The position numbers were made by a program, and so were the translations under genes. From Gammaproteobacteria bacterium (GTDB taxonomy: Bacteria > Pseudomonadota > Gammaproteobacteria > GCA-001735895): a stretch of 45,786 nt of DNA. The notes under the pieces are model-generated. The model was not told where the DNA came from. It searched no databases and worked only from the letters and a program-made list of their open reading frames with translations. Positions 25,992-45,786 of this stretch are shown piece after piece (positions within the stretch are counted from its first letter, which is position 1; each line of letters opens with the position of its first letter). The DNA lies in contig JAAEMR010000073.1 in assembly GCA_024225395.1 (NCBI GenBank), positions 1 through 45,786 on the forward strand. The letters are read 5' to 3'.

Positions 25992-27251
25992 CTATAAACG
26001 TTCAACCCGAACCTTGATAACCGAGCGTTCATCCGCGTCCAGAACCTTCAGGCTATAACCCTGTTCTTCGATGGTGTCACCTATGGCTGGAATGTGTCGT
26101 AAGCGACAACCGATCAATCCTCCAATAGTATGTGCCTCCTCGACTGAAAAGTGTACATACAGGATATCATTGACTTCTGAGATGGGAGTCCTGCCGCTCA
26201 TAATGTGAATGCTTTCACTCTCGTGTTCGATGTAGCTTCGTTGCCTGGGGTTATATTCATCGAAGTCATATCCGACATCGATCTCACCCACGACCTCTTC
26301 AAAAACATCTTCCATCGTGAGAATTCCAACCGCAGAACCAAATTCATCAACTACTACGGCCATATGATCATCACGTGCCTGCAACAGGGGAAGAGCCTGG
26401 TCAATAGTTTGTTTAGGAGAAATAAACAATACCGAACTCATGTAATCGGTAGCAGGCTTTTCCATAATATCTGGATCCATTAAGTCCCATGAATCCAGCG
26501 TCAGGATACTCTTGATATTGGTAATATTTCCCCGATAGATCGGCAACCGGTTGAAGCCGTATTTCATGACCAGACGCACTGCCTCTTTCATGGGGCGAGC
26601 TTCATTTAAGCCAACTACATCGGCGAGAGGAATCATAGCCTCTCCCACTGTCGTATCGCCAAAACGAATGATTCTCCGTATACGTTTACGATCAATCGTT
26701 GAAGAGTTTGCGGTAGAATCGGATACATCGAGTAGTACTCGTAACTCTTCGCGGGTGATAAACATATTCTGAGGAACCGTTCCTCCACCCACGATACGTG
26801 TGATAAAACGTGCTACAAGACTGAAAATGAAAATTACCGGATAGAAAAGGTAAGAGAAAAAACGTAGCGCATAGATAATTCGACTGGAGAGCGTGTCAGC
26901 ATTTTGCTGGAAGATACTCTTGGGTACGACTTCTCCAAGAATCAGTAGCACCGGAGTTAAAATCAGAATTGATATCAAATCCCCGGCCGAGCCAAACATA
27001 TCGATGAATATCAGGGCACCCAGGGTGGAGATAATCACTGTGGCCAGATTGGTGCCCACCAGAGTCGTACCAAGAATAACGTCCGGAGTTTTGAATAGTT
27101 TGAGCACTAATGAGGCACCACGGTTTCCCTTCTTTGCCTGATGTCTTAATTTGAGCTTATCCGAATTCACCATGGCTATTTCGGAACCAGAGAAAAAACC
27201 TTTCAGCAACAGGAAAAAAATAATTAATATGAGTTCAACAGCCCATTCCAT
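25992..27251 (-). CDS. CNNM/CorC-type membrane protein (DUF21-CBS-CorC_HlyC), shorter paralogue
   Basis: A 419-residue membrane protein with an N-terminal DUF21/CNNM transmembrane domain (about 1-180, 'FFSGSEIAMVNSDKLKLRHQAKKGN', 'LILGEVVPKSIFQQNAD'), a pair of CBS domains (about 205-325, 'VVDEFGSAVGILTMEDVFEEVVGEI') and a C-terminal CorC_HlyC transporter-associated domain ('TIGGLIGCRLRHIPAIGDTIEEQGY'). CNNM/CorC proteins act in Mg2+/Na+ export, with the CBS pair binding Mg-ATP. The start ATG at 27251 has AGGAG seven bases upstream (a GTG at 27254 is also possible) and shares a base with the stop of the larger paralogue, so the pair is co-translated and may form a heteromeric transporter. Confidence 0.9.
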   Translation of the reverse strand: MEWAVELILIIFFLLLKGFFSGSEIAMVNSDKLKLRHQAKKGNRGASLVLKLFKTPDVILGTTLVGTNLATVIISTLGALIFIDMFGSAGDLISILILTPVLLILGEVVPKSIFQQNADTLSSRIIYALRFFSYLFYPVIFIFSLVARFITRIVGGGTVPQNMFITREELRVLLDVSDSTANSSTIDRKRIRRIIRFGDTTVGEAMIPLADVVGLNEARPMKEAVRLVMKYGFNRLPIYRGNITNIKSILTLDSWDLMDPDIMEKPATDYMSSVLFISPKQTIDQALPLLQARDDHMAVVVDEFGSAVGILTMEDVFEEVVGEIDVGYDFDEYNPRQRSYIEHESESIHIMSGRTPISEVNDILYVHFSVEEAHTIGGLIGCRLRHIPAIGDTIEEQGYSLKVLDADERSVIKVRVERL

Positions 27252-31859: not shown

Positions 31860-33053
31860 TCAGGTTAGTGAAAGCAGGGCTAATACCAGCAATTCCGGAT
31901 CATATAATGGTGTGCTGGATTTACTCACGAGTTTGGTAACGATAAGCTGTATACCCTTTTTTTGTAACAATGTTATTGACGGTTGATTTAACTGGCTCTG
32001 ATAGCCACTGTCCATCAAAACAAAGTTAATAAAGCGATTGGCGGCAAGTTTAGGCCCGGCGTCTGCTCTAAGGTAATCCAGCAGGGTCTGGATGGATGAA
32101 TCCATCGTCATGCCAATCTGTTCAGGATCCAGGCCAAGGTTTGGGATATATACCTTTGGGCAGTCATTACTGGCAATCGCCTTGCCGACACCGTCGGGTA
32201 ATAAATTTGCTATCAGGCTGGTATAAAAACTGCCTGGTGGATAGCAGATCAGTTCGGCATTGGTGATTAATTTACGATTCTTCTTTCGTAGTTTTGCCTG
32301 TGCTAACGATAGTTGCCGAGGATTAGTTGACAGGTATAATTTTTTTACCCGGGAAGCTAATGGTTTCTGTTCCTTACCGGTCAGTCGGTGCTGCCCAATG
32401 ATACGACTACCGTCTGCCAGGTCTGCGCAGAGAGTGAGGTTATCGTTGACGGTAGCCCTTACCGTGCCTCGAACACCGACCAGTTTGGAAAATAGAAAAA
32501 TAATGGGGTCAAGGTGTTGGTGGTTATTCAGATAACCTCCTGTAAGAATGAGATTTCCAATGCTGGCACCACGCAAATTAAATGAGGATGGCATAGCTTT
32601 GCGAAAATAACCGAGCTGAGTACGAATGAGGCGGCGCATCGGGTTGGGTACAGCTCGTACCAGTTCATCTTTACCTTCACACATTGCATCCAGTTGCATT
32701 AGTAGCTCAGCGTTTTTAGAGCTTTTGTTCAGTCGATGAGTGAACAGTTTGTAGACTTCGGGATGACCTGTAATGGTTTCGTCTGCCAGAGCCATCAGGC
32801 GACTACGCAGATCACCGATAGAAGGCATCTGAAAAGCTTTACGCAGAACGGCTGAGCTACCACCGGAATCGAATGGTGTGACCATATGAACCGAATTATG
32901 CGTATAGGACTTAAGTGTCTGGCTAAATTGATTGAGTGCAGACCCGCCACTGAAGAACAGAATATGAGGGCCTAGCTCGGGAGCTTTTCTGTAACGTCCC
33001 GCCCGTAACGGATCGGGCATCTGTATTGCTCGGGTTACGTGGATGCTTTTCAT
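31860..33053 (-). CDS. GAK system CofD-related protein
   Basis: A 397-residue member of the CofD/YvcK superfamily (2-phospho-L-lactate transferase fold). The nucleotide-type loop appears as 'HILFFSGGSALNQFSQTL', followed by 'VTPFDSGGSSAVLRKAFQMPSIGDLRSRLMAL' (compare the DDGGSSG..R...PPGDIR pattern of YvcK) and 'ELICYPPGSFYTSLIANLLPDGVGKAI'. The divergence and the companions downstream (ATP-grasp, HprK-related kinase B, amphi-Trp) mark it as the CofD-related protein of the GAK gene set; no reaction is known. The ATG at 33053 is preferred, with a TTG at 33062 possible. It is divergent from the Nudix-led operon, sharing a 237-base region with a Fur-box-like palindrome. Confidence 0.85.
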   Translation of the reverse strand: MKSIHVTRAIQMPDPLRAGRYRKAPELGPHILFFSGGSALNQFSQTLKSYTHNSVHMVTPFDSGGSSAVLRKAFQMPSIGDLRSRLMALADETITGHPEVYKLFTHRLNKSSKNAELLMQLDAMCEGKDELVRAVPNPMRRLIRTQLGYFRKAMPSSFNLRGASIGNLILTGGYLNNHQHLDPIIFLFSKLVGVRGTVRATVNDNLTLCADLADGSRIIGQHRLTGKEQKPLASRVKKLYLSTNPRQLSLAQAKLRKKNRKLITNAELICYPPGSFYTSLIANLLPDGVGKAIASNDCPKVYIPNLGLDPEQIGMTMDSSIQTLLDYLRADAGPKLAANRFINFVLMDSGYQSQLNQPSITLLQKKGIQLIVTKLVSKSSTPLYDPELLVLALLSLT

Positions 33054-33143
33054 GTCAGACAATCATAGGAAACCTGTTTTAGGTTTACAAGTGTATACGC
33101 GATATTAACCTGCAGAATCACAATAAATTTAAGCGTAATTGAC

Positions 33144-33162
33144 ATAAATCATAATCATTATT
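33144..33162. promoter_or_regulatory. Candidate Fur-box-like palindrome in the CofD/Nudix divergent promoter region
   Basis: ATAATCATTAT at 33151-33161 is an exact match to the core of the Fur consensus (GATAATGATAATCATTATC); the 19-base window matches at 14 positions. It lies about 90 bases before the CofD-related start and 140 bases before the Nudix start, where it could act on both promoters. AT-rich DNA produces such matches by chance, so this is tentative. A 6-bp stem AAACCT/AGGTTT (33070-33086) is also present just upstream of the CofD-related start. Confidence 0.3.
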
Positions 33163-33299
33163 TTGCAGTGATGGACAATGACTTATCTGGACATATTTTA
33201 GCTGTAATAAGCTACACTTCAAATGAGACTTTTTTCTGGATGTTTCATTAAATAATTTTGTTATAGGTATATTTCCAGCTAGATCCTCAGGAGATACTA

Positions 33300-33770
33300 T
33301 TGTTAAACCTTGAGCCCAATATATGTAATGCAGTACGTGCTCTTATCATTCGTGATGACAGGATTTTGTTGATCAGAAAAGAGTATGGGGGAGTTTGCCA
33401 GAAATTTGCGTTACCGGGTGGAAGGCAGGACACAGGCGAGACCCTGGCGAATGCTCTGATCAGGGAATGCAAAGAGGAGGTAGGAGCTGATATCAGCAAT
33501 ATTGCATTGTTACATGTAGTGGACTGGTTTAAGCCTCGCGATTGTATTCCGCCATTAACTCGTCAACATGTGGAATTTCTATTTTCATGCGATGTGGATG
33601 ATTCATACATTCCACAAAATGGTATTCATCCGGACAAACATCAGGTCGAAGTGATCTGGGTCAAAATTGATGCACTTGATAATCTGCCATGTCACCCGAA
33701 TTCCATGCTAGCCTTGCTGCCGGGCATTAAAAATAAAAAATCAACGATTTATTTGGAAACGATTAACTAA
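33300..33770 (+). CDS. Nudix hydrolase (canonical box), first gene of GAK operon
   Basis: A 156-residue Nudix hydrolase that would cleave a nucleoside diphosphate linked to another moiety. The Nudix box is canonical, 'GRQDTGETLANALIRECKEE' followed by 'VGA', so the Mg2+-binding REXXEE set is intact. The N-terminus 'NICNAVRALIIRDDRILLIRKEYGGVCQKFALPGG' is ADP-ribose-pyrophosphatase/MutT-like. The start is TTG with CAGGAG about seven bases upstream; no ATG fits. It is first in a five-gene operon, with the PhoU-kinase fusion starting two bases after its stop. The substrate is unknown. Confidence 0.88.
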   Translation: MLNLEPNICNAVRALIIRDDRILLIRKEYGGVCQKFALPGGRQDTGETLANALIRECKEEVGADISNIALLHVVDWFKPRDCIPPLTRQHVEFLFSCDVDDSYIPQNGIHPDKHQVEVIWVKIDALDNLPCHPNSMLALLPGIKNKKSTIYLETIN

Positions 33771-33772
33771 CC

Positions 33773-35422
33773 ATGCAGATAGATAAAAGCATACGTGAAA
33801 ATTTACGCTTTCTGATTATTGAAGTCGGTTCACAGGTTTCTAACCTGCAAACCTATTTTGATACGCATTCTGTCACGGTGGCAAAGCGTATTCTCGATCG
33901 TAGAGGTTATACTAATAATCTTAAAACAAGTATCCACAGTAGTTGCCTGGCAAGAATTGAACAAGATAAGAATGTTCGAAATGCGGCAAGTTTATTGCGT
34001 TCGACGGAAAGTGTAGCTACCGATCTGGTACGTATTGCGGAACTGTGCCGAGACTGTATTCAACAGTTTGGTTACATAGAAAATCCTAAAAACCTGCCGT
34101 CAAGGTTGTACGTGTCCTTGCTGGGTCGTATTGGCAAAGGTATACGCGTAGTCGATTTGGCCATTGTTAACAGCGACATTCAAATGGCTTTAAAGATTGG
34201 TCGTATTGAGAATAAACTGGATTGTGCATATAAAAAACTACTGAGAAAATACACTCGTGACCTGCAACTACAGAAAAAAAAGAACACGGGAGATTTGATC
34301 GCAGCGTTGTTTGTTGCTCATTCACTGGAGCAAATGGGAGATATTTTACTCAATATCAGTGAGTCAATTATTTCTGCGAATCTGGGCCAGCCCTTTAATA
34401 CAGATAGATACCATTCCTTGCAGGCTTCGGTTGAACTACTTAACGCTGTCGAAGGTAATAAATCGGAGCTGGTGCTGGAAACAGTTGCACAAACTAAATC
34501 TGGCAGTGGTATTTCCGGGGTTAGCACGACTGATGAAAAGGGGGTAGAGCACCTCGCCATCTTTAAAGATGGTCAGAAACGCAAAGTTAAGGAAGAGCGT
34601 CAGGGTGTAGAAAGCTGGCATGAAATCTTTCCAGGCCTGGCGCCAAAGATATTGTCCTATCATAAGCAGGGGCAGTCTGCGTCATTATTGATTGAGCATC
34701 TTGCCGGATTAACCTTCGAACAGATCCTGTTACACGAACCACCAAAGCTGTTAGATCAAACATTAAAACAATTACAGAAAACACTGAAATCTGTATGGAA
34801 CGAGACGCGTACTAAAAAAGCGGTATCGGCAGACTATATGGGGCAATTGCAAAAGAGGCTGGGTGATGTTTATGAACTTCACCCGGAATTCATGCACAGT
34901 GATATGCAGATCTGTAAGACTACAGAGAAATCATTTGATAACCTGCTAAATCAGGCAAAGCGTTATGAGAAGAAACTCAAAGCGCCATTCTCTGTTTACA
35001 TCCATGGAGATTTTAACGTGGATAACATCATTTACGATCCGCTGGAGAAAAAGATTAATTTTATCGATTTACATCGTTCCAGTTATATGGACTATGTACA
35101 GGATATTTCGGTGTTCATGGTTTCTAATTATCGATTGCGGGTTGTAGATCCTGTTATCCGAAGACGGATTTGTGATCTGGTCTGTAATTTCTATGACTTC
35201 TCGGCAGCTTATGCGAAAACCAGGAAGGATGACTATTTTGATCTCAGGCTGGCACTTGGGCTGGCGCGCTCGTTTGCCACTTCGACCCGTTTTGTAGTGG
35301 ATAAAACACTGGCACGAGCCATGTGGTTACGCGCCCGTTATCTTCTCGAAAGTGTTCTATTAACAGACCCCAAACAAATGCATAAATATCGTGTACTCAT
35401 TAAGGAGTTGTTCGTTGGCTAA
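33773..35422 (+). CDS. PhoU-like domain fused to aminoglycoside-phosphotransferase-type kinase
   Basis: A 549-residue two-domain protein. Residues about 1-215 are all-helical and PhoU-like (regularly spaced '...SVATDLVRIAELCRDCIQQFGYI...', '...AHSLEQMGDILLNISESIIS'). Residues about 225-549 form a protein-kinase-like APH domain. The nucleotide-binding beta sheet is near 'KRKVKEERQGVESWHEIFPGLAPKIL', the catalytic loop is 'YIHGDFNVDNIIYD' (HxDxxxxN), and the metal site is 'INFIDLHRSSYMDYVQDISVF', with D as the DFG-equivalent. Both active-site motifs are intact, so it is probably an active kinase for a small molecule, perhaps controlled by a phosphate-sensing helical domain. It overlaps the following ATP-grasp gene by eight bases. 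Confidence 0.8.
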   Translation: MQIDKSIRENLRFLIIEVGSQVSNLQTYFDTHSVTVAKRILDRRGYTNNLKTSIHSSCLARIEQDKNVRNAASLLRSTESVATDLVRIAELCRDCIQQFGYIENPKNLPSRLYVSLLGRIGKGIRVVDLAIVNSDIQMALKIGRIENKLDCAYKKLLRKYTRDLQLQKKKNTGDLIAALFVAHSLEQMGDILLNISESIISANLGQPFNTDRYHSLQASVELLNAVEGNKSELVLETVAQTKSGSGISGVSTTDEKGVEHLAIFKDGQKRKVKEERQGVESWHEIFPGLAPKILSYHKQGQSASLLIEHLAGLTFEQILLHEPPKLLDQTLKQLQKTLKSVWNETRTKKAVSADYMGQLQKRLGDVYELHPEFMHSDMQICKTTEKSFDNLLNQAKRYEKKLKAPFSVYIHGDFNVDNIIYDPLEKKINFIDLHRSSYMDYVQDISVFMVSNYRLRVVDPVIRRRICDLVCNFYDFSAAYAKTRKDDYFDLRLALGLARSFATSTRFVVDKTLARAMWLRARYLLESVLLTDPKQMHKYRVLIKELFVG

Positions 35423-36302
35423 TTTAAAAATAGGTGTAATAGGTATCCCCGGAAAGTGGTCTACCGAAGTTCTGGCAGATGCAGTTGAAAAAAAAACGGG
35501 TTTCAGACTGGTCTTAGATATGGCCGATGTCAGTCTTAATCTTGAAACCAACACACTGGTTGCGGGTGGCAGCAATCTTTGCGAGCTGGATGGTTTACTG
35601 GTCAAAAAGATAAGCGCAGTTTACTCTCCGACGACGCTTGACAGGCTGGAATTACTGCGTGTCGCAGAACAGGCGGGCGTTCGGGTATTTAGCCCGGCAT
35701 TAAGTATGTTAAGGCTTATAGATCGACTCAGTTGTACAGTGACGCTGCGTAATGCCGGAATACCGATGCCTGATACCCGGGTGACTGAGGACATAGCGGT
35801 TGCGATGGACACGGTCAGAGATTTTGGTAGTGCCGTGTTTAAACCGCTGTATTCTACCAAGGCACGTGGTATGACTATCATTGATGCGGATCAGGAGCCT
35901 GATGCGTTAGAGAGCGCTATCAGTAATTTTAAAGCTGATAATCAGATGATGTATATACAGCGTAAAATAAACTTGCCCGGCAGAGACCTGGGCATGGTAT
36001 TTTTGGCCGGTAACTACCTTGGCACCTATGCACGAGTACCTCAGGGTGATGCCTGGAATACCACTATTAATAGTGGTGGCCGTTATGCCGCGCATACGCC
36101 ACCCGATGATGTCATCGAACTCGCTTATCGTGCTCAGGCACCTTTTAACATGGATTTCACTACTGTCGATGTTGCAGAAACGGATTCAGGTCCGATTGTT
36201 TTCGAGGTATCAGCATTCGGTGGTTTTCAAGGTACCAAAGATGGTATTGGTATCGATGCAGCTGCATTATATGTGGAACATGCTTTAAAAGAGTTAGGAT
36301 AG
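35415..36302 (+). CDS. GAK system ATP-grasp enzyme (RimK-like)
   Basis: An ATP-grasp ligase of 295 residues related to RimK/alpha-L-glutamate ligases. Features seen are 'RLIDRLSCTVTLRNAGIPMPDT' (linker to the ATP-grasp core), 'AVFKPLYSTKARGM' (Lys and glycine-rich loop that bind ATP) and 'GPIVFEVSAFGGFQG' (metal-binding Glu; the usual second Asn of 'EVN' is replaced by Ser). The frame is open to 35391, but the TTG at 35415 has AAGGAG seven bases upstream, giving 'MANLKIGVIGIPGKW'. It is the 'grasp' part of the GAK set. Expected chemistry is ATP-dependent ligation of an amino or thiol group to a carboxylate; the substrates are unknown. Confidence 0.85.
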   Translation: MANLKIGVIGIPGKWSTEVLADAVEKKTGFRLVLDMADVSLNLETNTLVAGGSNLCELDGLLVKKISAVYSPTTLDRLELLRVAEQAGVRVFSPALSMLRLIDRLSCTVTLRNAGIPMPDTRVTEDIAVAMDTVRDFGSAVFKPLYSTKARGMTIIDADQEPDALESAISNFKADNQMMYIQRKINLPGRDLGMVFLAGNYLGTYARVPQGDAWNTTINSGGRYAAHTPPDDVIELAYRAQAPFNMDFTTVDVAETDSGPIVFEVSAFGGFQGTKDGIGIDAAALYVEHALKELG

Positions 36303-36303
36303 T

Positions 36304-36999
36304 ATGGGCAGACGAATAGCTGCTATTATCCGACATGGAGATTATCATCAGATGGCCGGGGCTCCTAGTGCTCATCAGCCATATCCACTGAATACCAGTG
36401 GTAAAAAACATGCTGCAGAAGCTGCTAACATTATTGATGAGATTCAACAAAAAAATGGCTGGTCACTGGCTACAGAGATCGACTGTTCGCAGATGCTTAG
36501 AGCCTGGCAGACGGCAGATATTATAGCGCAGACACTTGGAACTGAACCTGAATTGCAACTACAGAGCTTTGATGAGCTGGCAGAACGTTGTGTTGGAAGT
36601 GCTGCTAACCTCACCACTGAGCAAATAAGCCGGGTTATTCATGATGATCCTCGATATGAGGAACTTCCACAAAACTGGAAATCGAATAGTGAGTACCGGT
36701 TGCCTTTTCAGGGTGCTGAATCACTACTAGAGGCGGGTCAACGGGTTGCTGAACACCTTAATGTACGTCTCTCCAAACTTGCTGCCAATGTACCGGGTAC
36801 GCTCAAACTGTTTGTTGGACATGGCGCATCCTTTCGTCATGCTGCATATCATCTTGGTGTTATGAAATATGACGATATCGCTCGTCTGAGTATGTTTCAT
36901 GGTCGACCGGTATTTTTGGAATTATTACAGGATGGAAGCTGGGTTCATATTGCCGGAGATTGGAAAATAAGGAAAACCAATTCAGAATTCAGAGACTAA
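36304..36999 (+). CDS. Histidine phosphatase family protein
   Basis: A 231-residue member of the phosphoglycerate mutase/SixA superfamily. The phosphohistidine motif is 'AAIIRHGDYHQMAG', the second Arg is in 'DCSQMLRAWQTADIIAQTL', and the second catalytic His is in 'KLFVGHGASFRHAAYHLG'; the active site is therefore complete. The extra segment after 'RHG' and the length of 231 differ from the short SixA proteins and resemble phosphatases acting on small phosphorylated metabolites. It follows the ATP-grasp gene by one base and precedes the metallophosphoesterase by four, so it belongs to the same operon. The substrate is unknown. Confidence 0.86.
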   Translation: MGRRIAAIIRHGDYHQMAGAPSAHQPYPLNTSGKKHAAEAANIIDEIQQKNGWSLATEIDCSQMLRAWQTADIIAQTLGTEPELQLQSFDELAERCVGSAANLTTEQISRVIHDDPRYEELPQNWKSNSEYRLPFQGAESLLEAGQRVAEHLNVRLSKLAANVPGTLKLFVGHGASFRHAAYHLGVMKYDDIARLSMFHGRPVFLELLQDGSWVHIAGDWKIRKTNSEFRD

Positions 37000-37003
37000 A
37001 ATA

Positions 37004-38365
37004 ATGGGTAAAAAGTTAAAATCATACGTATTTCCCCGTTATCAGGGCGAAGAGTGGACAGGTACAAAGCTGCCAACGGTTAGTGAGAACTGGCTGGTAG
37101 GAAGGAGTCGCTCTGTTAGTAAGGATCGTTATCACCGGGAGGAATACTCCAGTGAACTGAAAAAAGTTATTGGTCAGGAAGACTGGAAATGGCCCAAACG
37201 TCCACTGTTTTTTATCTCTGACATACACGGAGATGCGGATGCGTTCATTGCTTCACTGGTGGCATCGGGGGTGATAAAAAAAACAGGCGCCAGGGATAAG
37301 GATTTTCAGGTCACAAAAGGCTTCCGTAAAGCCAAGATTCTTATTGGAGGTGACTGTTTTGATAAAGGACCAAGTACACTGCGTCTTTTACGGGTTATTA
37401 AAATTCTTCTGCGTAAACATGCGGATGTTTTAATTCTTGCCGGTAATCATGATGTTCGTATGATGCTTGGAATCCGCAGTATTGACATGGAAGCCGATCC
37501 CAGAACTGACCATTTTTTTATTCGTATGGGCAGGAAGATGGTGCCATTCCTGAAAGAGATCAGTGAACAATATTTACAGGGTAAAGAGGCTTTACGAGAT
37601 ATACCCTCTGCACGTGAATGTCGGCGAATTCTTTATCCACCAAAAAGCTGGTTTAGAGATTTTCCCCTGCATGCTGTATGGAATATGCCTGATGCAACTA
37701 TTGATAAGGAAGTGAAGAAGTTGAATGATAAAATTCGTCAGTTTGATGAAGACTGTGAGAGAGCGGATTTATCGATACGCATGGTGTATGCAGCAGCTCA
37801 AAAATGGAATGAACTGTTTCTACAGCCTAAAGGTGAATTCGCCTGGTTCTACCAGCACATGAGTCTGTGTTATCGTAAAGGTTCCCTGATATTCCTACAT
37901 GCAGGTATCGATGATCGAATTGCCGGTATCCTTAATCATTCAGACTGGAAGCAACTGAATGAGAATTTCAGAAACTTAATGTTTGGCAATCCTTATGAAT
38001 TTTACTATGGCCCGTTTGCAAATATTATGCGAACCAAGTACCGCGATGTCGATATGCCGCTAACACGTAACGGCGTAAAGAAAATTCATCAGCAGGGTAT
38101 TCGTGTTGTTGTGCACGGGCATCGTAATCTGCTGCATGGTCAAAGACTGATGTTGCGTAAGGGCTTGCTTAATGTTGAGTGCGATACAACTCTTGATCGA
38201 AATTCTCGCAAAAAGGAGGGGCTCGAGGGAGTAGGAGCTGCAGTAACAGTTATTCATCCCAACGGCTATATTTTAGGTATTAGCAACGATTATTCATTCA
38301 TTAAGTTATTCGACCCGAAACATATCGTACGCCAGATAAGAACGGTAAAAATCAAAGGTTCATAA
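37004..38365 (+). CDS. Metallophosphoesterase (PPP/ApaH-like), long form
   Basis: A 453-residue cytoplasmic calcineurin-like phosphoesterase. All metal-binding motifs are present in order: 'FFISDIHGDADAF', 'GGDCFDKGPSTLRLL', 'LAGNHDVRMMLG', 'FLHAGIDDRI' and 'VVVHGHRNLLHG'. A region of about 120 residues between GNHD and HAGID is inserted, as in fructose-bisphosphatase class III-like or long PPP phosphatases, and the first 60 residues are an unassigned basic N-terminus. It ends the Nudix-to-phosphoesterase operon and overlaps the stop of the convergent exonuclease/endonuclease-family gene by six bases. Substrate unknown; a nucleotide, a phosphoprotein or a sugar phosphate are possible. Confidence 0.87.
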   Translation: MGKKLKSYVFPRYQGEEWTGTKLPTVSENWLVGRSRSVSKDRYHREEYSSELKKVIGQEDWKWPKRPLFFISDIHGDADAFIASLVASGVIKKTGARDKDFQVTKGFRKAKILIGGDCFDKGPSTLRLLRVIKILLRKHADVLILAGNHDVRMMLGIRSIDMEADPRTDHFFIRMGRKMVPFLKEISEQYLQGKEALRDIPSARECRRILYPPKSWFRDFPLHAVWNMPDATIDKEVKKLNDKIRQFDEDCERADLSIRMVYAAAQKWNELFLQPKGEFAWFYQHMSLCYRKGSLIFLHAGIDDRIAGILNHSDWKQLNENFRNLMFGNPYEFYYGPFANIMRTKYRDVDMPLTRNGVKKIHQQGIRVVVHGHRNLLHGQRLMLRKGLLNVECDTTLDRNSRKKEGLEGVGAAVTVIHPNGYILGISNDYSFIKLFDPKHIVRQIRTVKIKGS

Positions 38366-39499
38366 GCTGATCCTGGCTAAAAGTACGGCATGATCTGAAG
38401 CGAATGCGGGGTTTTCAAAATAAGGCCGAAATGGACGCTTTGATCCTGTCGTATCGAGTCCATCCTCAGCAAAGGTAAACTGTTCCAGTCCGCAGAAAAT
38501 ATAGTCCACATTGATTGCCGGGGTCTGGCTGTCCAGTAGAGACCACTTGCTTCCGATTTTGTTGTGCAAAGCGCTATCGGGGTTTTTATCTTCAATACGT
38601 TTGTCCGGTATAGCATCAATAAAACCCGACTGGCGGATCATGTTAATTTCATCAGAGTCCGGGGTTGTATTAAAATCGCCGCCTATGACCCAGATATCTC
38701 TCTGAGACTGTTGTGTTCCAGCGGGTATACGATAATGAGTGGTTTCCTGGTAGGCAGAAACAATATTATCCAGAATCAACTCTATCTGCCGCAACCGTGA
38801 AGCTCCCGCTCGCCTGTTAAGGCGTACGTTACCCTCTCGCTCACCACTTAAAGTGTTGAGGTGAATATTGAGAAAATTGAGGTAGCGGCTTTCGCCTTCT
38901 GATTCCAGTTTTACACGACCCATGATAACCAGTCTTGGTTCTGTATCACGCTGACCGAGATATAATCCCGTGGTGATGCTAACAGGTTCAAAACAGGAGA
39001 TACATTCAGTATCAACCAGGTCTGCATCTGGTGGAATATTTTCAGGGTCTGCCCAGGGAACCCATAATTTTCTACTGCTGATGCCTTTGCGGATGCAGAT
39101 TCCGTAACCCTGCTGTACATCGACATGAGCAGGAATATAGTTTTTTACATCGCCTGTTTCTGTATAGCGGTTCCACTTGCCAGGATGAGGATTGTTGTGC
39201 GAGGTGACTGCGGGAAAAAAATAACACTGATAACCTGAAAAAATTCCCTGCAGTATAGCTCTGCCGGTCTGCCAGCGACCGGAGGGCGAAGTGGACATGT
39301 CTTCAAAGCCGATACATTCCTGCAATAAAATAATATCGGGTTGAAGCTGATCAGGAGTTTGTAGCCAGACAGCTATGCTTTCTTCCCAGGTTTTGCGGAA
39401 TGCAGCCGTGTAGCTTCCCGCTACAGGGTAGGGCCTGGAATCAAGCTGTTCAAACAACTTTGCTCCGGCCATATTCCAGCTCATAATACTGATGTCCAT
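38360..39499 (-). CDS. Endonuclease/exonuclease/phosphatase (EEP) family protein
   Basis: A 379-residue DNase I-like EEP protein. Motifs: 'ISIMSWNMAG' (Asn), 'DIILLQECIG' (metal-binding Glu), 'NFLNIHLNTLSGERE' (His), 'WVIGGDFNTTPDSDE' (Asp/Asn) and 'FASDHAVLLARISL' (Asp/His), so the active site is complete. EEP enzymes cleave phosphodiesters or phosphomonoesters in DNA, RNA, inositol phosphates or lipids. There is no signal peptide. AGGAG lies five bases before the ATG at 39499; a TTG at 39502 is less likely. It is the only gene on this strand between 33.1 and 42.7 kb and is divergent from the second Nudix-led operon. Confidence 0.88.
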   Translation of the reverse strand: MDISIMSWNMAGAKLFEQLDSRPYPVAGSYTAAFRKTWEESIAVWLQTPDQLQPDIILLQECIGFEDMSTSPSGRWQTGRAILQGIFSGYQCYFFPAVTSHNNPHPGKWNRYTETGDVKNYIPAHVDVQQGYGICIRKGISSRKLWVPWADPENIPPDADLVDTECISCFEPVSITTGLYLGQRDTEPRLVIMGRVKLESEGESRYLNFLNIHLNTLSGEREGNVRLNRRAGASRLRQIELILDNIVSAYQETTHYRIPAGTQQSQRDIWVIGGDFNTTPDSDEINMIRQSGFIDAIPDKRIEDKNPDSALHNKIGSKWSLLDSQTPAINVDYIFCGLEQFTFAEDGLDTTGSKRPFRPYFENPAFASDHAVLLARISL

Positions 39500-39667
39500 C
39501 AATTCTCCTGAATTTATTTAAAACTTCATGACGCTCTGCTGAGAGCATGAAACTATTATGCCGATACAGTAAAAAATATACAGCACAAAGCGGATACTGT
39601 CTTCGTGAAGGTTTGAAGTCGTGGTAAACTATATTCCTGTGAAATTCCTTACCAGGTTCGATTTTCT

Positions 39668-40240
39668 ATGGGTGCAGGTGTAATTCCGTTTGCTATTAAT
39701 GGTGGACAACTTCAGTTTCTTTTTCAGAAAACCTTTACTGGCAGAAAGGTCGGTTACCTGATCGATTTTGGTGGTGGTTTGGGTGATAGAGAAGACTATC
39801 ATGCAACTGCGATACGTGAATTTGTTGAGGAAACAGAAACCATGTTTCTTGACAATGATCTACAACATGCCTGTCGGTCAGATGAACGTGTAATGTCTCA
39901 GATTATTGAGGTTGATGAAATATTCGAACGTACTTTGTCTGCACATCCAAACTGGTGGTGCCGGAGACTCCCCGGGAATGGAAAAAATCCCAAAGACTGG
40001 CGAACTTATTTCATACAGTTTCCGTTTCGTGATATCTCGGCTATGAACAATGAGTGGAAACGCGATACTTCAGGCCGTTTCAAAAAACGCCGCCAACTTG
40101 TCTGGGTTTCGGCAGATAACTTACTGGAAATCTATGCCAGATCACCTGAGAAGCTATGGAAGCGTGTACGTCAACTTGAAAGTGCTGAGACATTGATCAA
40201 GGAGATTCAATCCACTCTGGTAAAATCGCAATACGCATAA
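39668..40240 (+). CDS. Nudix hydrolase, divergent box
   Basis: A 190-residue Nudix-fold protein. The box reads 'GGLGDREDYHATAIREFVEE' then 'TETM', so the metal-binding REXXEE is kept, but the glycine normally two residues later is Glu. N-terminal 'GAGVIPFAINGGQLQFLFQKTFTGRKVGYLIDFGGG' and the late 'DWRTYFIQFPFRDISAMNNEW' are unlike MutT and suggest a specialised subfamily. It is first in an operon with the HprK-related kinase, the phosphatase-Nudix fusion and the amphi-Trp protein (gaps of 34, 29 and 44 bases). Substrate unknown. Confidence 0.8.
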   Translation: MGAGVIPFAINGGQLQFLFQKTFTGRKVGYLIDFGGGLGDREDYHATAIREFVEETETMFLDNDLQHACRSDERVMSQIIEVDEIFERTLSAHPNWWCRRLPGNGKNPKDWRTYFIQFPFRDISAMNNEWKRDTSGRFKKRRQLVWVSADNLLEIYARSPEKLWKRVRQLESAETLIKEIQSTLVKSQYA

Positions 40241-40274
40241 GGTCACACAAACAATCAAATTCATGAGATTTTAA

Positions 40275-41369
40275 ATGACAAATATTACTCTAAACACACT
40301 GATTGACACGCTCTCAGCTAATGAGAAATTAATTGACGAACATCTGGATCTTTATCTGGGTGGATTTACCATGAGAATCCGCTCCAACCAGAAACCGGTT
40401 ATTGATAAGTTAGCTGCTTATTTTTCACATGTGGAACCGGGTAATGCTGAGCCTGATATTGAGATTCTTGCTATTGAACGTGATGTAATAACTGACTCCG
40501 GACTGGAGTTTATCGACTGGGCACGTGAACCCGGCAAGACCGGTCGTAAAGATGCTTATTTTGATATTCCGAATGCACGTGTCGTGCATAAGGTTCGTAC
40601 CGGCATGCTATTTTTGCAAAGTGCATCTGCAAGAATCGCAGCGGGACCGTGCCTGCAATATGATAACCAGGTTATTAATTTTATCAATTCACAGTACATG
40701 GACTGGTTACAGCATAACGGCTGGCTGATATGTCATGCATCGGGCATGGAAGTTAAGGGTCATGCTATCGGCATGGCAGGATTATCCGGCGGTGGTAAAT
40801 CTACTTTAATGCTCAATCTGATGGAAGATAACTCGGTGAACTATGTGACCAACGATAGACTCTTTATTCGCACAAACAACAGTACTGTTACAGCTCGCGG
40901 GATACCAAAATTACCGCGAATTAATCCAGGCACTATTGTATTTAATGAAAGGTTGCATGGCCTGATTTCCAAACAGCGCAGAGAAGAATTACTGCAGTTG
41001 CCAAAACAGGAATTATGGCACCTTGAAGAAAAATACGATGTGCATATTGAACAGGTTTACGGAGCGCAAAGGGTCACAACGGAGGCACAGCTGGAAGCTT
41101 TCGTCATTCTTAACTGGCAACATGATACGACTGAGAAAACAGCAGTAACCGCTGTTGATATTAATCAGCGTCGTGAATTGCTAATGGCTCTGATGAAATC
41201 ACCCGGACCGTTCTATCAGCATACTGATGGCAGTTTCCACAGTGACACAGCTGAATTCGATGAACGGTCTTACCTTGAAGCGCTTCAAGGTGTAACTATC
41301 TATGAGGTTACCGGTAAGGTTGATTTTGAACTGGCAGGCAATCGCCTGTCCGAAATACTCGATCTCTAA
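40275..41369 (+). CDS. HprK-related kinase B (GAK system)
   Basis: A 364-residue P-loop kinase related to HPr kinase/phosphorylase. Walker A is 'GLSGGGKST' at residues 169-177, followed by 'YVTNDRLFIRT' (Asp at the HprK catalytic position) and 'GIPKLPRINPGTI'. The first 160 residues are an N-terminal domain of the HprK-related B type ('FTMRIRSNQKPVIDKLAAYF'). No HPr or PTS gene is nearby, so the target is unlikely to be HPr; small-molecule or protein phosphorylation is possible. Together with the ATP-grasp, CofD-related and amphi-Trp genes it completes the GAK signature. No enzymatic function has been shown for this family to my knowledge. Confidence 0.87.
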   Translation: MTNITLNTLIDTLSANEKLIDEHLDLYLGGFTMRIRSNQKPVIDKLAAYFSHVEPGNAEPDIEILAIERDVITDSGLEFIDWAREPGKTGRKDAYFDIPNARVVHKVRTGMLFLQSASARIAAGPCLQYDNQVINFINSQYMDWLQHNGWLICHASGMEVKGHAIGMAGLSGGGKSTLMLNLMEDNSVNYVTNDRLFIRTNNSTVTARGIPKLPRINPGTIVFNERLHGLISKQRREELLQLPKQELWHLEEKYDVHIEQVYGAQRVTTEAQLEAFVILNWQHDTTEKTAVTAVDINQRRELLMALMKSPGPFYQHTDGSFHSDTAEFDERSYLEALQGVTIYEVTGKVDFELAGNRLSEILDL

Positions 41370-41398
41370 TACGTAGAAAGTCAACGGGAGACGGAATT

Positions 41399-42361
41399 AT
41401 GCTTCGTGAATTATTACTGCTTCGCCATGGAAAATCAGACTGGAATATTAATACCGATGATTTTAACAGGCCGCTGAAAGACAGAGGGAAAAGAGCTGCA
41501 CAACGTATGGGAGTATGGCTGGCAACTCATAACAAGATACCTGACATCATTATCAGCTCACCGGCCGAACGTGCTCTGACAACGGCTGAAAAATGCTGCA
41601 AGGCGATGGGGCAGGGATCCGATAATATTTTGCAGCAGCAGAAAGTCTATCTTGCTGATACCAGTGACCTGCTCCAGGTACTGCGAAAGTTACCTGCATC
41701 TGCAAATCGGGTCATGCTGGTCGGTCATAATCCCGGGTTAGAAAACCTGCTCACCTGTCTTACCGATGGTGCTGCCAAAGCTGAAGAAGATGGAAAGTTA
41801 CTACCAACGGCCACTTTAGCGCTGTTAGAGATTGAGTTGAACTGGTCAGATATTAAACAGGGCAGTGCCAGGCTGAAACGCATAATTCGTCCGCGCACAC
41901 TACCCAAACAATTTCCCTGGCCACTGCACGAAGCTAAAGAAAGACGGGATCGACCTGCTTATTATTACAACCAGTCTTCTACTATTCCATACCGTTTACG
42001 TGATGGTGAGTGTGAAATTCTGATTGTTCGATCTAGCAAGAAAAAACATTGGGTTGTTCCAAAAGGTATCCACGAACCGGGGTTGACATCACAGCAATCG
42101 GCGGCCAAAGAGGCGCTCGAAGAAGCTGGTGTTGAGGGCTCTGTAAAAGCAAAGGCTTTAGGTCGTTATAGTTACCAGAAATGGGGTGCTAACTGCATCG
42201 TTGAAGTGTATGCGATGGAAGTCAGTCATGTCATTGAAGAAAGCGAATGGGAAGAAAGGCATAGAACACGGCAATGGGTTTCCCCGCAACAAGCCGCTAG
42301 CCTGGTCAGGCAGACGGAACTCGGCCCGATGATCATGGCTCTCGAAAAAAGTACTAATTAA
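41399..42361 (+). CDS. SixA-type histidine phosphatase fused to Nudix hydrolase
   Basis: A 320-residue two-domain protein. Residues about 1-160 are a SixA-like histidine phosphatase ('LLLLRHGKSDWN', 'DIIISSPAERALTTAEKCC', 'VMLVGHNPGLENLLTCL'). Residues about 180-320 are a Nudix domain with 'WVVPKGIHEPGLTSQQSAAK' followed by 'EALEEAGVEG', the PKG-type box of the diadenosine/diphosphoinositol polyphosphate hydrolase kind. Mycobacterial MutT1 combines the same domains in the opposite order and uses them in sequence on one nucleotide; a similar two-step reaction is plausible here. GGGAG precedes the ATG. It lies between the HprK-related kinase and the amphi-Trp gene. Confidence 0.88.
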   Translation: MLRELLLLRHGKSDWNINTDDFNRPLKDRGKRAAQRMGVWLATHNKIPDIIISSPAERALTTAEKCCKAMGQGSDNILQQQKVYLADTSDLLQVLRKLPASANRVMLVGHNPGLENLLTCLTDGAAKAEEDGKLLPTATLALLEIELNWSDIKQGSARLKRIIRPRTLPKQFPWPLHEAKERRDRPAYYYNQSSTIPYRLRDGECEILIVRSSKKKHWVVPKGIHEPGLTSQQSAAKEALEEAGVEGSVKAKALGRYSYQKWGANCIVEVYAMEVSHVIEESEWEERHRTRQWVSPQQAASLVRQTELGPMIMALEKSTN

Positions 42362-42405
42362 AGAATACTTTGAAAATTAACAACCGGATTAATCAGGAAA
42401 AAAAC

Positions 42406-42678
42406 ATGCGACTCGATAAAAATACTTTCAGACACGATTCATTACAGGATACAAAATCAATTAGTAAAGTTCTGGATTCGATTACTGAAGGCTTAGCAAA
42501 AGGAAAGCTAGTCTTTAGTGATGAGGACGATAAAATTATACTAAATCCTGACGGCCTGCTTGAACTTAAGGTTACTGCCAGTCAGGAAGATAATCGTCAA
42601 AAAGTCAATGTGCGCATTAGCTGGCAAGTTGAAAGTAAAACAAAAAATAACAAAAAAAGTTTAACAGTTTCATCCTGA
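42406..42678 (+). CDS. Amphi-Trp domain protein (GAK system)
   Basis: A 90-residue soluble protein from the ATG at 42406, which has an AGGAA ribosome binding site; the open frame reaches a TTG at 42370, but the extra 12 residues do not fit. The pattern 'FRHDSLQDTKSISKVLDSITEGLAKGKLVFSDEDDKIILNPDGLLELKV ... VRISWQVE' matches the amphi-Trp domain, an amphipathic helix plus beta-strands ending in a conserved Trp. This small domain co-occurs with GAK genes and may act as a carrier or substrate protein, for example one modified by the ATP-grasp or kinase enzymes; that is inference. It ends the operon. Confidence 0.8.
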   Translation: MRLDKNTFRHDSLQDTKSISKVLDSITEGLAKGKLVFSDEDDKIILNPDGLLELKVTASQEDNRQKVNVRISWQVESKTKNNKKSLTVSS

Positions 42679-42765: not shown

Positions 42766-43278
42766 TTACTTTTTATTTTTTTTGGATTCTTTCTTTTTGC
42801 TATTCTTTTTATCCTTCTTGGATTTCTTGTCTTTTTTGGATTTTTTACCCTTTTTGTCTTTCTTAGACTCTTTTTTAGCTTTCTTCTTTTTACCTTTAGT
42901 TTTCACTGGCTCACTAGAGTCTTCTTTATCATCATCGGTATCAACTGTCTCCGGGGTATCTTCGACTGCAGCCGGCTTAGTAGCAGCGACTTTTTTAATT
43001 GTCGATTTCTTAGGGGTTGATTTTTTTGGAGCCGCTTTTTTAGTACTGGTGGCGTTAAACAAATCCATGCCAATTTTTTTAAAGCGATTGAGCATATAAC
43101 TAACTTGTCCAGCAGTCAGACCTGATTTTTCAGCAGCTTCCTTGTTAGTATCACCATTGTTCAGAGCTAAAAGTGCTTTGGCTCGTTTACCTTCAAGATC
43201 TACTTTTTCGGCCAGCTGTTCACATTTCTGGATTGCTGCAGTGTCGAGTAACGGGTTCGTGGTCGTGTTAGTTATCAT
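42766..43278 (-). CDS. HTH protein with histone H1-like lysine-rich tail
   Basis: A 170-residue protein. Residues about 28-68 form a helix-turn-helix-like segment ('AKALLALNNGDTNKEAAEKSGLTAGQVSYMLNRFKKIG'), resembling transposase/regulator HTHs. Residues 78-170 are low-complexity: 'KKAAPKKSTPKKSTIKK' (H1-like AlaLysPro repeats), an acidic Asp/Glu/Ser stretch (about 108-127) and then a Lys/Ser/Asp tail of 'KKDKKSKK' type. It is probably a nucleoid-binding protein; such tails also bind polyphosphate and resemble the C-terminus of PhaM-like granule proteins. GAGGAG precedes the ATG by five bases. A palindrome lies about 67 bases upstream. It is separate from the CHAD operon but has the same orientation. 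Confidence 0.78.
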   Translation of the reverse strand: MITNTTTNPLLDTAAIQKCEQLAEKVDLEGKRAKALLALNNGDTNKEAAEKSGLTAGQVSYMLNRFKKIGMDLFNATSTKKAAPKKSTPKKSTIKKVAATKPAAVEDTPETVDTDDDKEDSSEPVKTKGKKKKAKKESKKDKKGKKSKKDKKSKKDKKNSKKKESKKNKK

Positions 43279-43344
43279 AATAACTCCTCGGTATTTTGGA
43301 ATAACAATTGATGAAAATATTATATTTTTGATTTTGTGGGAAAC

Positions 43345-43367
43345 TTACCATATTTTTTATATGGTAA
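43345..43367. promoter_or_regulatory. Perfect palindrome upstream of H1-like gene
   Basis: TTACCATAT and ATATGGTAA (43345-43353, 43359-43367) form a 9-bp inverted repeat around TTTTT, about 67-89 bases upstream of the H1-like start, a typical operator distance. The HTH in that protein makes autoregulation possible. In the same gene-free stretch (43279-43587) a weaker repeat TGCTCT/AGAGCA (43482-43513) with an inner ATCA/TGAT lies below the Nudix stop and could end that transcript. Nothing else is recognised there. Confidence 0.45.
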
Positions 43368-43587
43368 ACAAATGAATTCTTGCGTTTTAGTATTATTTTA
43401 AAAAAATCACAATATCTTGATGCTCTTTTTTTCGAGTATTCATAGAATATTTTACTCAATTCAATAAACCCGTATTTTAATTGCTCTGCCCATCATCATT
43501 TGATAGTAGAGCAGAATCTGGGGACTGAAAATGATCTGGATTAATTACTTATTAAAACTAAAGGGGTTGTGTTATATCGTTGTTGCA

Positions 43588-43992
43588 TTAAACCGTCTTT
43601 TCCAAAAGATTGATACAGGCTACAATTTCCGGCCAGACTACAAGTGATTTAGCCTGCTTGGTGGACACTTCAATGCGTTTTCGCTGATGACTCTCGGGCC
43701 ATTTTTTTGATAAACGTTTATCTGTTCGCATGGGGTAAAGCGTTAAATCTACTTTTTCTCCATGGCTCATAATGTTAAAACAACATTTTAAATTTACATC
43801 AAGCTGACCGGTTAAACCCGCTTCTTCATAAGCTTCCTGCAATGCTGATTCACGTTTTGATTTATTGGGAACTCTGTTACCTTTAGGCACAATCCACTGA
43901 TTGCTTAACCGACTGGTAATTAAAATAATTTTTATTTTCCCTGAACTCTGAAAATAGGGGAGAACACCATATTGCTTTGGGAGTGATGCCAT
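43588..43992 (-). CDS. Nudix hydrolase, PKG-type (diphosphoinositol/diadenosine polyphosphatase-like)
   Basis: A 134-residue Nudix protein with 'WIVPKGNRVPNKSKRESALQ' followed by 'EAYEEAGLTG'. The box is of the same PKG...EAxEEAG kind as the Nudix half of the phosphatase fusion, with Q in place of the usual R and K in place of the first Glu, while the two adjacent metal-binding Glu (EE) remain. This kind includes enzymes acting on diphosphoinositol polyphosphates, diadenosine polyphosphates and sometimes polyphosphate. It is last in a minus-strand operon (CHAD, ParA, CYTH, Nudix), three bases after the CYTH stop. Substrate not determined. Confidence 0.83.
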   Translation of the reverse strand: MASLPKQYGVLPYFQSSGKIKIILITSRLSNQWIVPKGNRVPNKSKRESALQEAYEEAGLTGQLDVNLKCCFNIMSHGEKVDLTLYPMRTDKRLSKKWPESHQRKRIEVSTKQAKSLVVWPEIVACINLLEKTV

Positions 43993-43994
43993 TT

Positions 43995-44477
43995 TCAGAT
44001 CTTAATGCCCTGAGGGTTCATCGCCAGTGCTTTATTCTGGTAGGATTTATCAATAGTCACTTCGCGACCAAACCAGTCAGCAGGTTCAAACTGATCAGCT
44101 TGCTCTAGAGATGAAAACTCAACCTCAACCAGCATTAAATGATCAAGTTCACCTAGAAAAACATCGAGTTCATAGCTTAGTTGTGTGTTTAACTTGCCTG
44201 TCCAACGATTTTTTTCTATTCGTTTACCCTGTGTATCCGGCCATAAAGTTTCAAATTGCTGCTGGTCAATGGAGGTTTCACGTTCTGTCCGAACCATACC
44301 CGAACCAGATTTCACGGTGATGAAATATTGCTCATCTTTTCTCCTTAATCGTATTTCAACCGAATCGCTTGATTGAGTAAGGTATCCTTGATGAATATAC
44401 GCTTTTTTTGCATTTGTAAGTTCAGGCAATTTTTTTACCAGGAATTTACGTTCTATTTCGATGTACTGGTCAGTCAT
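43995..44477 (-). CDS. CYTH domain protein (predicted inorganic triphosphatase/adenylate cyclase-like)
   Basis: A 160-residue CYTH/triphosphate tunnel protein. The signature 'EIERKFLVKKLPE' begins the barrel. 'VEIRLRRKDEQYFITVKSGSG', 'RTERETSID' and 'YELDVFLGELDHLMLVEVEF' supply the arginine, lysine and acidic residues lining the tunnel. Bacterial members studied so far are mostly inorganic triphosphatases (YgiF, NeuTTM) and many are linked to CHAD domains. Here the CHAD is a separate gene two genes upstream in the same operon. Short length means a single-domain enzyme. An inorganic triphosphatase is the most likely function, with cyclase activity possible but less likely. Confidence 0.87.
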   Translation of the reverse strand: MTDQYIEIERKFLVKKLPELTNAKKAYIHQGYLTQSSDSVEIRLRRKDEQYFITVKSGSGMVRTERETSIDQQQFETLWPDTQGKRIEKNRWTGKLNTQLSYELDVFLGELDHLMLVEVEFSSLEQADQFEPADWFGREVTIDKSYQNKALAMNPQGIKI

Positions 44478-44489
44478 TATTATATTGTT

Positions 44490-45233
44490 TTAAAGCTTTT
44501 TCTGAATTTCCTGCCAAAGTGATTGATACGCTTTGGCAGCTGGACGGCTTCGTGCAAATGTTGTCACTGGTGCACGATGAATACCCATTTTCTCAACATC
44601 TGTAGAAAAAGGAACCCTGGTTTCAAGGAATGTTTTTTTATAGCGGCTGTGTAACTGGTTCATGGTATCTATATGTAGCTTTTTCTGACGCTGAACCATG
44701 GAAAAAAAAGGTACCAGCTTTTTTCTCCCCAGGTTGTGTTTTTTGAAAAAGTCGATTAACTGCTCAAACGTACGAACAGTTAATGTGGAAGGTATGACGG
44801 GTATCACAATGTGATCGGCCGCCTTGAAAACACTTTCTGATAACGAAGAAATATTTGGAGGGCAATCAAGTAAAATGACATCATAATCGTTATTAACAGA
44901 CTTCAGTGCTTTTTTAAGCCTTGAACGGCTATTTTTCATGCGTGACAGAAAAATATCGAAATCACGATATGTCATGTTGGCAGGTAAAATATCCAGGTTA
45001 TCATAATCACTCCCTTTAATAGCATTAGTGAAACGCTTTACATCTTTAAAAAAAGATTCTTTTTTAAGATTATTAGAAGGTTTAACTCTAAAGTAAAAAC
45101 CTGAAGCACCTTGCGGATCGAGATCACAAAGTAAAGTACGGTAGCCTGATCGGGCCAGCTCATAAGCAAGGTTAACTGACGTGGCTGTTTTACCCACGCC
45201 GCCCTTGTTACTGTAACACGCGATAATTTTCAT
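44490..45233 (-). CDS. ParA/MinD-type ATPase, orphan (no ParB)
   Basis: A 247-residue ParA family ATPase. The deviant Walker A is 'SNKGGVGKTATSVNLAYELA' (residues 8-27), with 'LLCDLDPQGASGFYF' (switch I) and 'DVILLDCPPNISSLSESVFKAA' (Walker B/switch II) intact. The ATG at 45233 has GAGGT seven bases upstream and gives the family N-terminus 'MKIIACYS'; an ORF start at 45293 would overlap the CHAD gene. No parB or parS is present, so it is not a chromosome segregation pair. Such orphan ParA proteins position cargoes (McdA for carboxysomes, PpfA for chemoreceptors), and here its operon partners are CHAD and CYTH genes. Confidence 0.88.
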   Translation of the reverse strand: MKIIACYSNKGGVGKTATSVNLAYELARSGYRTLLCDLDPQGASGFYFRVKPSNNLKKESFFKDVKRFTNAIKGSDYDNLDILPANMTYRDFDIFLSRMKNSRSRLKKALKSVNNDYDVILLDCPPNISSLSESVFKAADHIVIPVIPSTLTVRTFEQLIDFFKKHNLGRKKLVPFFSMVQRQKKLHIDTMNQLHSRYKKTFLETRVPFSTDVEKMGIHRAPVTTFARSRPAAKAYQSLWQEIQKKL

Positions 45234-45243
45234 CCTTTTGACC

Positions 45244-45786
45244 TCAAATGTTAAATAATTTCTTGAATTGTTGTTGTGTTGACAGGCTGTCAAAAATTTG
45301 AAAATTTGTAATAACCTTGGCTCGTTCTTCCAGCTGTTTCTGATAGAGCATGGCTATTAATGCACCAACACTTTTGGCAACAGAGATATCCTGTTTTCGA
45401 CCTTTTGAAGCATTGGTCAATATAAATTCCTGCAAAGATTCCTGCTGCACAGAGTAGTCATTAAATAGTCCTAAATTATCCTGTAGCCGTTTCAGTGCCT
45501 TAATTAAACTCTTAATCTCTTTTAATGGAAACATGGGGCTAAAAAACTCCATTAAGTAACGTAACTTCTTGCAATGGATGCGCAGCTCATGCACTTCTGA
45601 ATCTGGAGTATCCGGGTTAATGGCGCGTGCTATCTTACAAACTTTGCGATACCTCTTCCAGATTAACTCTCGAGCATAAATAAAAGCAGAATGATCAGCA
45701 TTTGGGCCGGGCTGTAAATCATCTGATCCACTAAATAGAGCATGTAGACTGCTAATGGATTTATTATAAGCTGAACTTTTTAAGTG
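45244..45786 (-). CDS. CHAD domain protein, 5'-truncated by window edge
   Basis: The frame is open from the end of the window to a stop at 45244, so the N-terminus lies outside; about 180 residues are visible. The CHAD signature is complete: 'YARELIWKRYRKVCKIA' and 'VHELRIHCKKLRYLMEFFSP', with the conserved His and basic residues, then 'LKRLQDNLGLFNDYSVQQESLQ'. CHAD domains bind inorganic polyphosphate through their histidines and lysines, and CHAD proteins attach to polyphosphate granules ('phosins'). Here CHAD is a stand-alone gene or the C-terminus of a CYTH-CHAD fusion; the upstream part would decide. Its stop lies about ten bases before the parA start, so they are co-transcribed. Confidence 0.88.
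   Translation of the reverse strand, partial: HLKSSAYNKSISSLHALFSGSDDLQPGPNADHSAFIYARELIWKRYRKVCKIARAINPDTPDSEVHELRIHCKKLRYLMEFFSPMFPLKEIKSLIKALKRLQDNLGLFNDYSVQQESLQEFILTNASKGRKQDISVAKSVGALIAMLYQKQLEERAKVITNFQIFDSLSTQQQFKKLFNI

Follow-up and report, generated by a model that had tools for sequence, protein, structure and literature searches.

What does a ParA-type ATPase do in an operon whose other genes point to polyphosphate (polyP)? The question is raised by one end of a 45,786-nucleotide (nt) stretch of DNA, hereafter the window, which is an entire contig (JAAEMR010000073.1) of a 4.45-Mb draft genome of a gammaproteobacterium (assembly GCA_024225395.1). There, genes for a CHAD protein, a ParA-family ATPase, a CYTH protein and a Nudix protein follow one another, and an original prediction from the window's sequence held that the ParA protein, an orphan with no ParB, positions polyP bodies with the help of a neighbouring histone-H1-like protein. 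We found that this ParA belongs to a subfamily encoded beside CHAD in several phyla, and we propose, with a probability of roughly 0.55, that polyP is the cargo of a ParA-type positioning system specified by this operon. The five genes named in the prediction were all recovered at their positions on the minus strand:

45244-45786, minus strand: 3' part (180 aa) of a CHAD gene whose 5' part is absent from the window; PF05235, 2.1e-27, 97 bits against a cut-off of 25.6
44490-45233, minus strand: ParA-family ATPase, 247 aa, ATG start; Pfam AAA_31, 1.7e-40
43995-44477, minus strand: stand-alone CYTH (TTM) protein, a candidate phosphatase; PF01928 just above cut-off, ExExK motif intact as EIERK
43588-43992, minus strand: small Nudix protein of the PKG type; PHROG nudix, 3e-14; resembles the SixA-Nudix protein at 41399-42361
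42766-43278, minus strand: helix-turn-helix (HTH) protein with a lysine-rich C-terminal tail; HTH_23, 2.4e-4, below cut-off

The first four genes are spaced as in one transcript, with gaps of 10 nt between CHAD and ParA, 12 nt between ParA and CYTH, and 2 nt between CYTH and Nudix. Another 309 nt separate the Nudix gene from the HTH gene, and a simple scan of this interval for promoters and terminators returned promoters at chance level only and no minus-strand terminator. The missing upstream part of the CHAD gene, which the prediction had marked for identification, was found on another contig of the same assembly (C174) that shares an exact 141-bp overlap with the window end. The completed CHAD gene is an intact open reading frame of 506 codons, and its start is overlapped by 4 nt by a gene for a 62-aa ribbon-helix-helix (RHH) protein. 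The operon therefore reads RHH-CHAD-ParA-CYTH-Nudix, an order that is identical in two congeneric genomes (L033 and L034).

Is the pairing of CHAD and ParA peculiar to this genome? We searched with a profile built from five orthologs of the ParA protein. The subfamily, well separated from other ParA proteins, turned up in 57 of the 369 genomes sampled from the class and, across many groups, in 80 named loci. The hosts include Pseudomonadota, Thermodesulfobacteriota, Chlorobiota, Verrucomicrobiota, Lentisphaerota and Planctomycetota, together with metagenome genomes titled Dadabacteria and Chloroflexi. In the class sample and the two congeners, 45 of 61 ParA genes have CHAD immediately upstream in the same orientation. 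Among all loci scoring above 305 bits the proportion is 101 of 111, compared with none of 25 generic ParA loci. The two genes are also tightly packed: in the named set they overlap by 4 nt in 42 of 71 pairs and lie no more than 30 nt apart in 64. Because the order is conserved across phyla, the adjacency is not due to chance, an explanation that this cross-phylum survey rules out. Whole genomes tell the same story, although these counts are uncorrected for kinship: CHAD occurs in 51 of 57 genomes with the subfamily ParA versus 75 of 312 without it, and PPK2 in 54 of 57 versus 160 of 312.

The polyP enzymes themselves recur beside the pair. A survey of 105 loci with home-made profiles counted CYTH in 25, SixA in 17, RHH in 16, Nudix in 13, PPK1 in seven, PhoU in six and PPK2 in five. 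Arrangements range from CHAD-ParA-PPK2 (G043) through PPK1...Nudix-CYTH-CHAD-ParA (L103) to PPK1-CHAD-ParA-CYTH-SixA-PPK2-PPK2 (L139), and include PPK1-ParA with no CHAD (G194). The window's genome encodes PPK1 and two PPK2 proteins. The CYTH assignment is firmer in the Neiella ortholog (L067; PF01928, 3.4e-10). The suggestion that the Nudix protein is a polyphosphatase found no support, and its Nudix box departs from the consensus. No Pfam model scored above its cut-off for this protein; the gene is annotated NUDIX in the plasmid copies of the module described below. A second PKG-type Nudix domain in the window, at 41399-42361, is fused to a SixA-like histidine phosphatase.

The most direct connection to polyP comes from the CHAD protein. 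At full length it combines a TTM/CYTH-like N-terminal domain with the CHAD domain, which passes the curated Pfam cut-off and retains the conserved basic residues of the family; across 58 homologs, columns of Arg, Lys or His are invariant. The AlphaFold (AF2) model of the Neiella ortholog (pLDDT 93.6) shows a TTM-like N-terminal domain, which lacks both a Pfam CYTH match and, in the consensus, the ExExK motif of catalytic TTM enzymes. The best structural matches of its CHAD domain are 6QV7 and 6QVA, the Chlorobium tepidum CHAD protein alone and with polyP (TM 0.94-0.95, 33-34% identity). The C. tepidum protein has been shown experimentally to bind polyP (PMC6537752), and the relevant passages of that paper make no mention of ParA. 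One genome that we located encodes a sequence matching the C. tepidum chain 3E0S at 100% identity. There the CHAD protein is 522 aa long, a subfamily ParA starts 2 nt downstream, and the locus reads PPK1-X-CHAD-ParA, with one gene between PPK1 and CHAD. At least one CHAD protein of the operon type is therefore a proven polyP binder. Comparative genomics brings the link of ParA and CHAD to polyP close to settled, and the predicted tie of the orphan ParA to a polyP-binding CHAD and to polyP enzymes extends far beyond the window's genome, to hosts in most of which it is not on a plasmid.

We then wondered what kind of ATPase this ParA is. Its KGGVGKT motif has the signature lysine of the deviant Walker A box (KGGxGKT), and the switch I DxD and Walker B aspartate are likewise present; Lys10 (the signature lysine), Lys15, Asp37, Asp39 and Asp123 are invariant across 54 homologs. 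The structural model (pLDDT 87) matches Soj/ParA first (TM 0.85-0.90) and McdA next, with BcsQ and MinD behind. In sequence, too, the protein is nearer Soj than McdA. The model ends at the last ParA helix and lacks the C-terminal extension of MinD. Basic residues K184, K/R215 and R220 are retained in 89-98% of homologs. The expected kinship with nucleoid positioners thus stood insofar as the solved structures closest to it are from nucleoid-binding ATPases of the Soj/ParA and McdA types. In a tree built by a quick method, with some long branches and an unsure deeper order, the subfamily, drawn from several phyla, splits from Soj-type ParA with a branch support of 100, and linkage to CHAD requires few changes along it. 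By this sequence comparison, the CHAD-linked ParA proteins are a separate clade from the Soj type. ParABS systems have parS and an adjacent ParB with a GERR box; a ParB box occurs near the subfamily ParA in 2 of 133 loci, one of them in a spurious frame, versus 19 of 25 Soj-type control loci. The description of the ParA as an orphan therefore holds for ParB proper, but it missed the RHH gene lying just outside the window.

That RHH protein (RHH_1, 3.8e-5, over cut-off) carries a short, basic and probably disordered N-terminal tail, MSKQNDNTTGTGKAGKKNTSLRLD. For partners of ParA/MinD ATPases, published work shows or suggests that a disordered N-terminus with positive charge mediates their action (PMC10241942), and the RHH protein fits this known pattern of ParA partners better than the H1-like HTH protein. 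The palindrome TGACGTCA immediately precedes the start codon of RHH in almost every locus with the gene; with further half-sites at steps of about 7 nt it was seen on C174 (L037, 10480-10510) and in RHH loci L033, L034 and L067-L093. It is probably the operator of the RHH protein. The full site is unique in the window's genome and located at the operon, which suggests that the RHH protein regulates its own synthesis. In G007, a repeat with the operator-like AATGACGACATTACATGAT lies near many contig ends and is probably a repetitive element. The RHH gene is present in 16 loci, all from one clade, and has decayed in two others, both Nitrosomonas (L080 and L083). Remnants of it lie upstream of CHAD in these two, where CHAD-ParA-CYTH is intact, and L083 keeps the palindrome. 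Most CHAD-ParA lineages have no RHH gene, and we rejected the RHH protein as a universal partner of ParA.

How might such a system work? In the mechanism we propose, the CHAD protein would coat polyP granules or an assembly of polyP enzymes, while ParA-ATP dimers would bind the nucleoid irrespective of its sequence. Through CHAD and, in the clade of the window, through the basic-tailed RHH protein, the cargo would stimulate local ATP hydrolysis. A granule would then move, or be spaced, along the gradient of ParA, and each daughter cell would inherit granules. CYTH and Nudix would be co-operonic enzymes that process polyP or triphosphate. We infer nucleoid binding, the role of CHAD and RHH as ATPase-activating adaptor, and granule movement or spacing, and it is the family to which the ATPase belongs that suggests positioning rather than regulation. 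The broader claim, that a ParA branch spanning several phyla is dedicated to moving or spacing polyP granules with CHAD (and in one clade RHH) as cargo adaptor, which would make it the first ATP-driven positioning of polyP granules, strikes us as an even bet.

Several observations weigh against positioning. The RHH candidate is confined to a single clade and is decaying in Nitrosomonas, and CHAD N-termini have no consistent basic tail, so a basic disordered CHAD N-terminus was rejected as an alternative activator of ParA. The arginine of the Soj 'PRNVR' segment, which we take to be DNA-binding, is not conserved in the alignment. In several Methylococcales (L102, L113, L114, L116, L120 and L125) the subfamily ParA is not beside CHAD, which we read as a partner lost or relocated, and ten deeper-branching or long-branch members also stand apart from CHAD. 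Escherichia coli and Pseudomonas aeruginosa make polyP, and we know of no such operon in either.

ParA-like ATPases can also serve as regulators or assembly factors, as BcsQ does for cellulose synthesis. The ATPase might accordingly bind CHAD, PPK or CYTH and control their activity or recruitment, with no movement of granules along the nucleoid. The tight linkage to polyP enzymes would suit such a role, down to the locus (G194) where PPK1 lies directly upstream of ParA with no CHAD, and BcsQ is among the structural matches. Soj/ParA and McdA are closer than BcsQ and MinD, however, and all motifs of the ParA dimer ATPase are invariant; we consider a regulator unlikely, though worth keeping in mind. 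More doubtful is the view that CHAD and ParA merely travel together, a conserved operon of unrelated functions spread horizontally. The patchy distribution would be expected of it, as would the copies on plasmids and the extra genes particular to single clades, but gene order and overlap have persisted while ParA identity across phyla fell to 45% and the remaining neighbours changed.

The basic-tailed RHH protein and the conserved palindrome directly before its gene raise another alternative, a cassette resembling type Ib partition in which RHH bound to the palindrome forms a centromere and the polyP genes were acquired later, the whole stabilising plasmids or islands. The complete five-gene module does occur on two Paracoccus plasmids. 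Yet the subfamily ParA was found on just 9 of 72,556 plasmids, and both Paracoccus plasmids encode a second, RepA-like ParA that matches the RepA profile over its whole length, N-terminal extension included (below the curated cut-off). With a separate RepA-like ATPase on both, the module is unlikely to be their partition system, and after this test of the plasmid collection we rejected plasmid partition as a family-wide role. The full operator is confined to the operon in the window's genome, and most lineages that have retained CHAD-ParA lack RHH. We therefore hold a type Ib-like cassette to be very improbable. In established type Ib systems (ParF-ParG, delta-omega) a ParA is likewise paired with a small basic-tailed RHH protein and an upstream palindromic site, but here the CHAD gene separates RHH from ParA, the RHH gene is dispensable across the family and the genes are mostly chromosomal.

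Comparison with other known systems places the positioning proposal among them. As in McdAB, a ParA-family ATPase lacking ParB is encoded beside its presumed cargo protein, and the model matches McdA; the cargo here would be polyP-binding CHAD rather than a carboxysome, and no McdB was identified. In P. aeruginosa, polyP granules are also placed relative to the nucleoid, with AlgP-dependent spacing (PMC9239181), but through an H1-like DNA-binding tether without an ATPase, and the HTH protein of the window has no family match to AlgP. The order folD-ppk-parA-CHAD is conserved within Acidithiobacillus (PMC10892726) and, to judge from gene names without alignment, very probably contains the same CHAD-ParA pair. 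That study concerned copper and tied its ParA to plasmid partition; it neither defined a subfamily nor surveyed whole phyla, and it did not propose positioning. Neither CHAD nor polyphosphate appears as a word in a survey of ParA/MinD cargos (PMC10241942), and a 2025 review describes the use of ATP hydrolysis in placing polyP or PHB granules as unknown and lists no ParA for either (PMC13052382). We found no earlier proposal of granule positioning by CHAD-ParA among open-licence papers; one may exist elsewhere. The review's question becomes approachable with an operon that is phylum-wide and occurs in C. tepidum and in species available in culture, Nitrosomonas europaea among them. If the proposal is true, the known cargos of ParA/MinD ATPases come to include a storage granule, and a large group of 'orphan' ParA genes, now carrying partition-protein annotations, can be assigned a function.

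The H1-like HTH protein, originally cast as a link between granule and nucleoid, fared less well. Its gene adjoins the operon in 3 of 105 loci, all from the same genus, and family searches gave only weak HTH matches and none to phasin, PhaF or PhaM. We dropped it as a linker and regard its gene as probably a neighbour outside the conserved module. Lysine-rich tails are not special to it, since a CNNM/CorC-type transporter in the window (27251-29092) also ends in a long poly-lysine tail. In the two congeners a gene for a protein with collagen repeats and a basic C-terminal tail lies between the Nudix and HTH genes (L033, 12692-13387; L034, 1168-1869); it is missing from the corresponding place in the window.

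Beside the operon lies a GAK system (31860-42678; CofD-like, ATP-grasp, HprK-related kinase B and amphi-Trp proteins, TIGR04354-04357), accompanied in the window by Pit and Na/Pi transporters. In Neiella the GAK genes lie directly behind RHH-CHAD-ParA-CYTH, and in G298 and G393 they are no more than 8 kb from CHAD-ParA. The subfamily ParA is present in 9 of 13 genomes of the class that encode the GAK ATP-grasp enzyme (p ~1e-5, uncorrected for kinship). These associations suggest that GAK has a role connected with phosphate or polyP; searches of the open-licence literature for the GAK system and amphi-Trp gave no matches. Within the same region, at 33773-35422, a PhoU-like N-terminal half is fused to a kinase half resembling aminoglycoside phosphotransferases, and the same fusion is found in Neiella directly behind CYTH.

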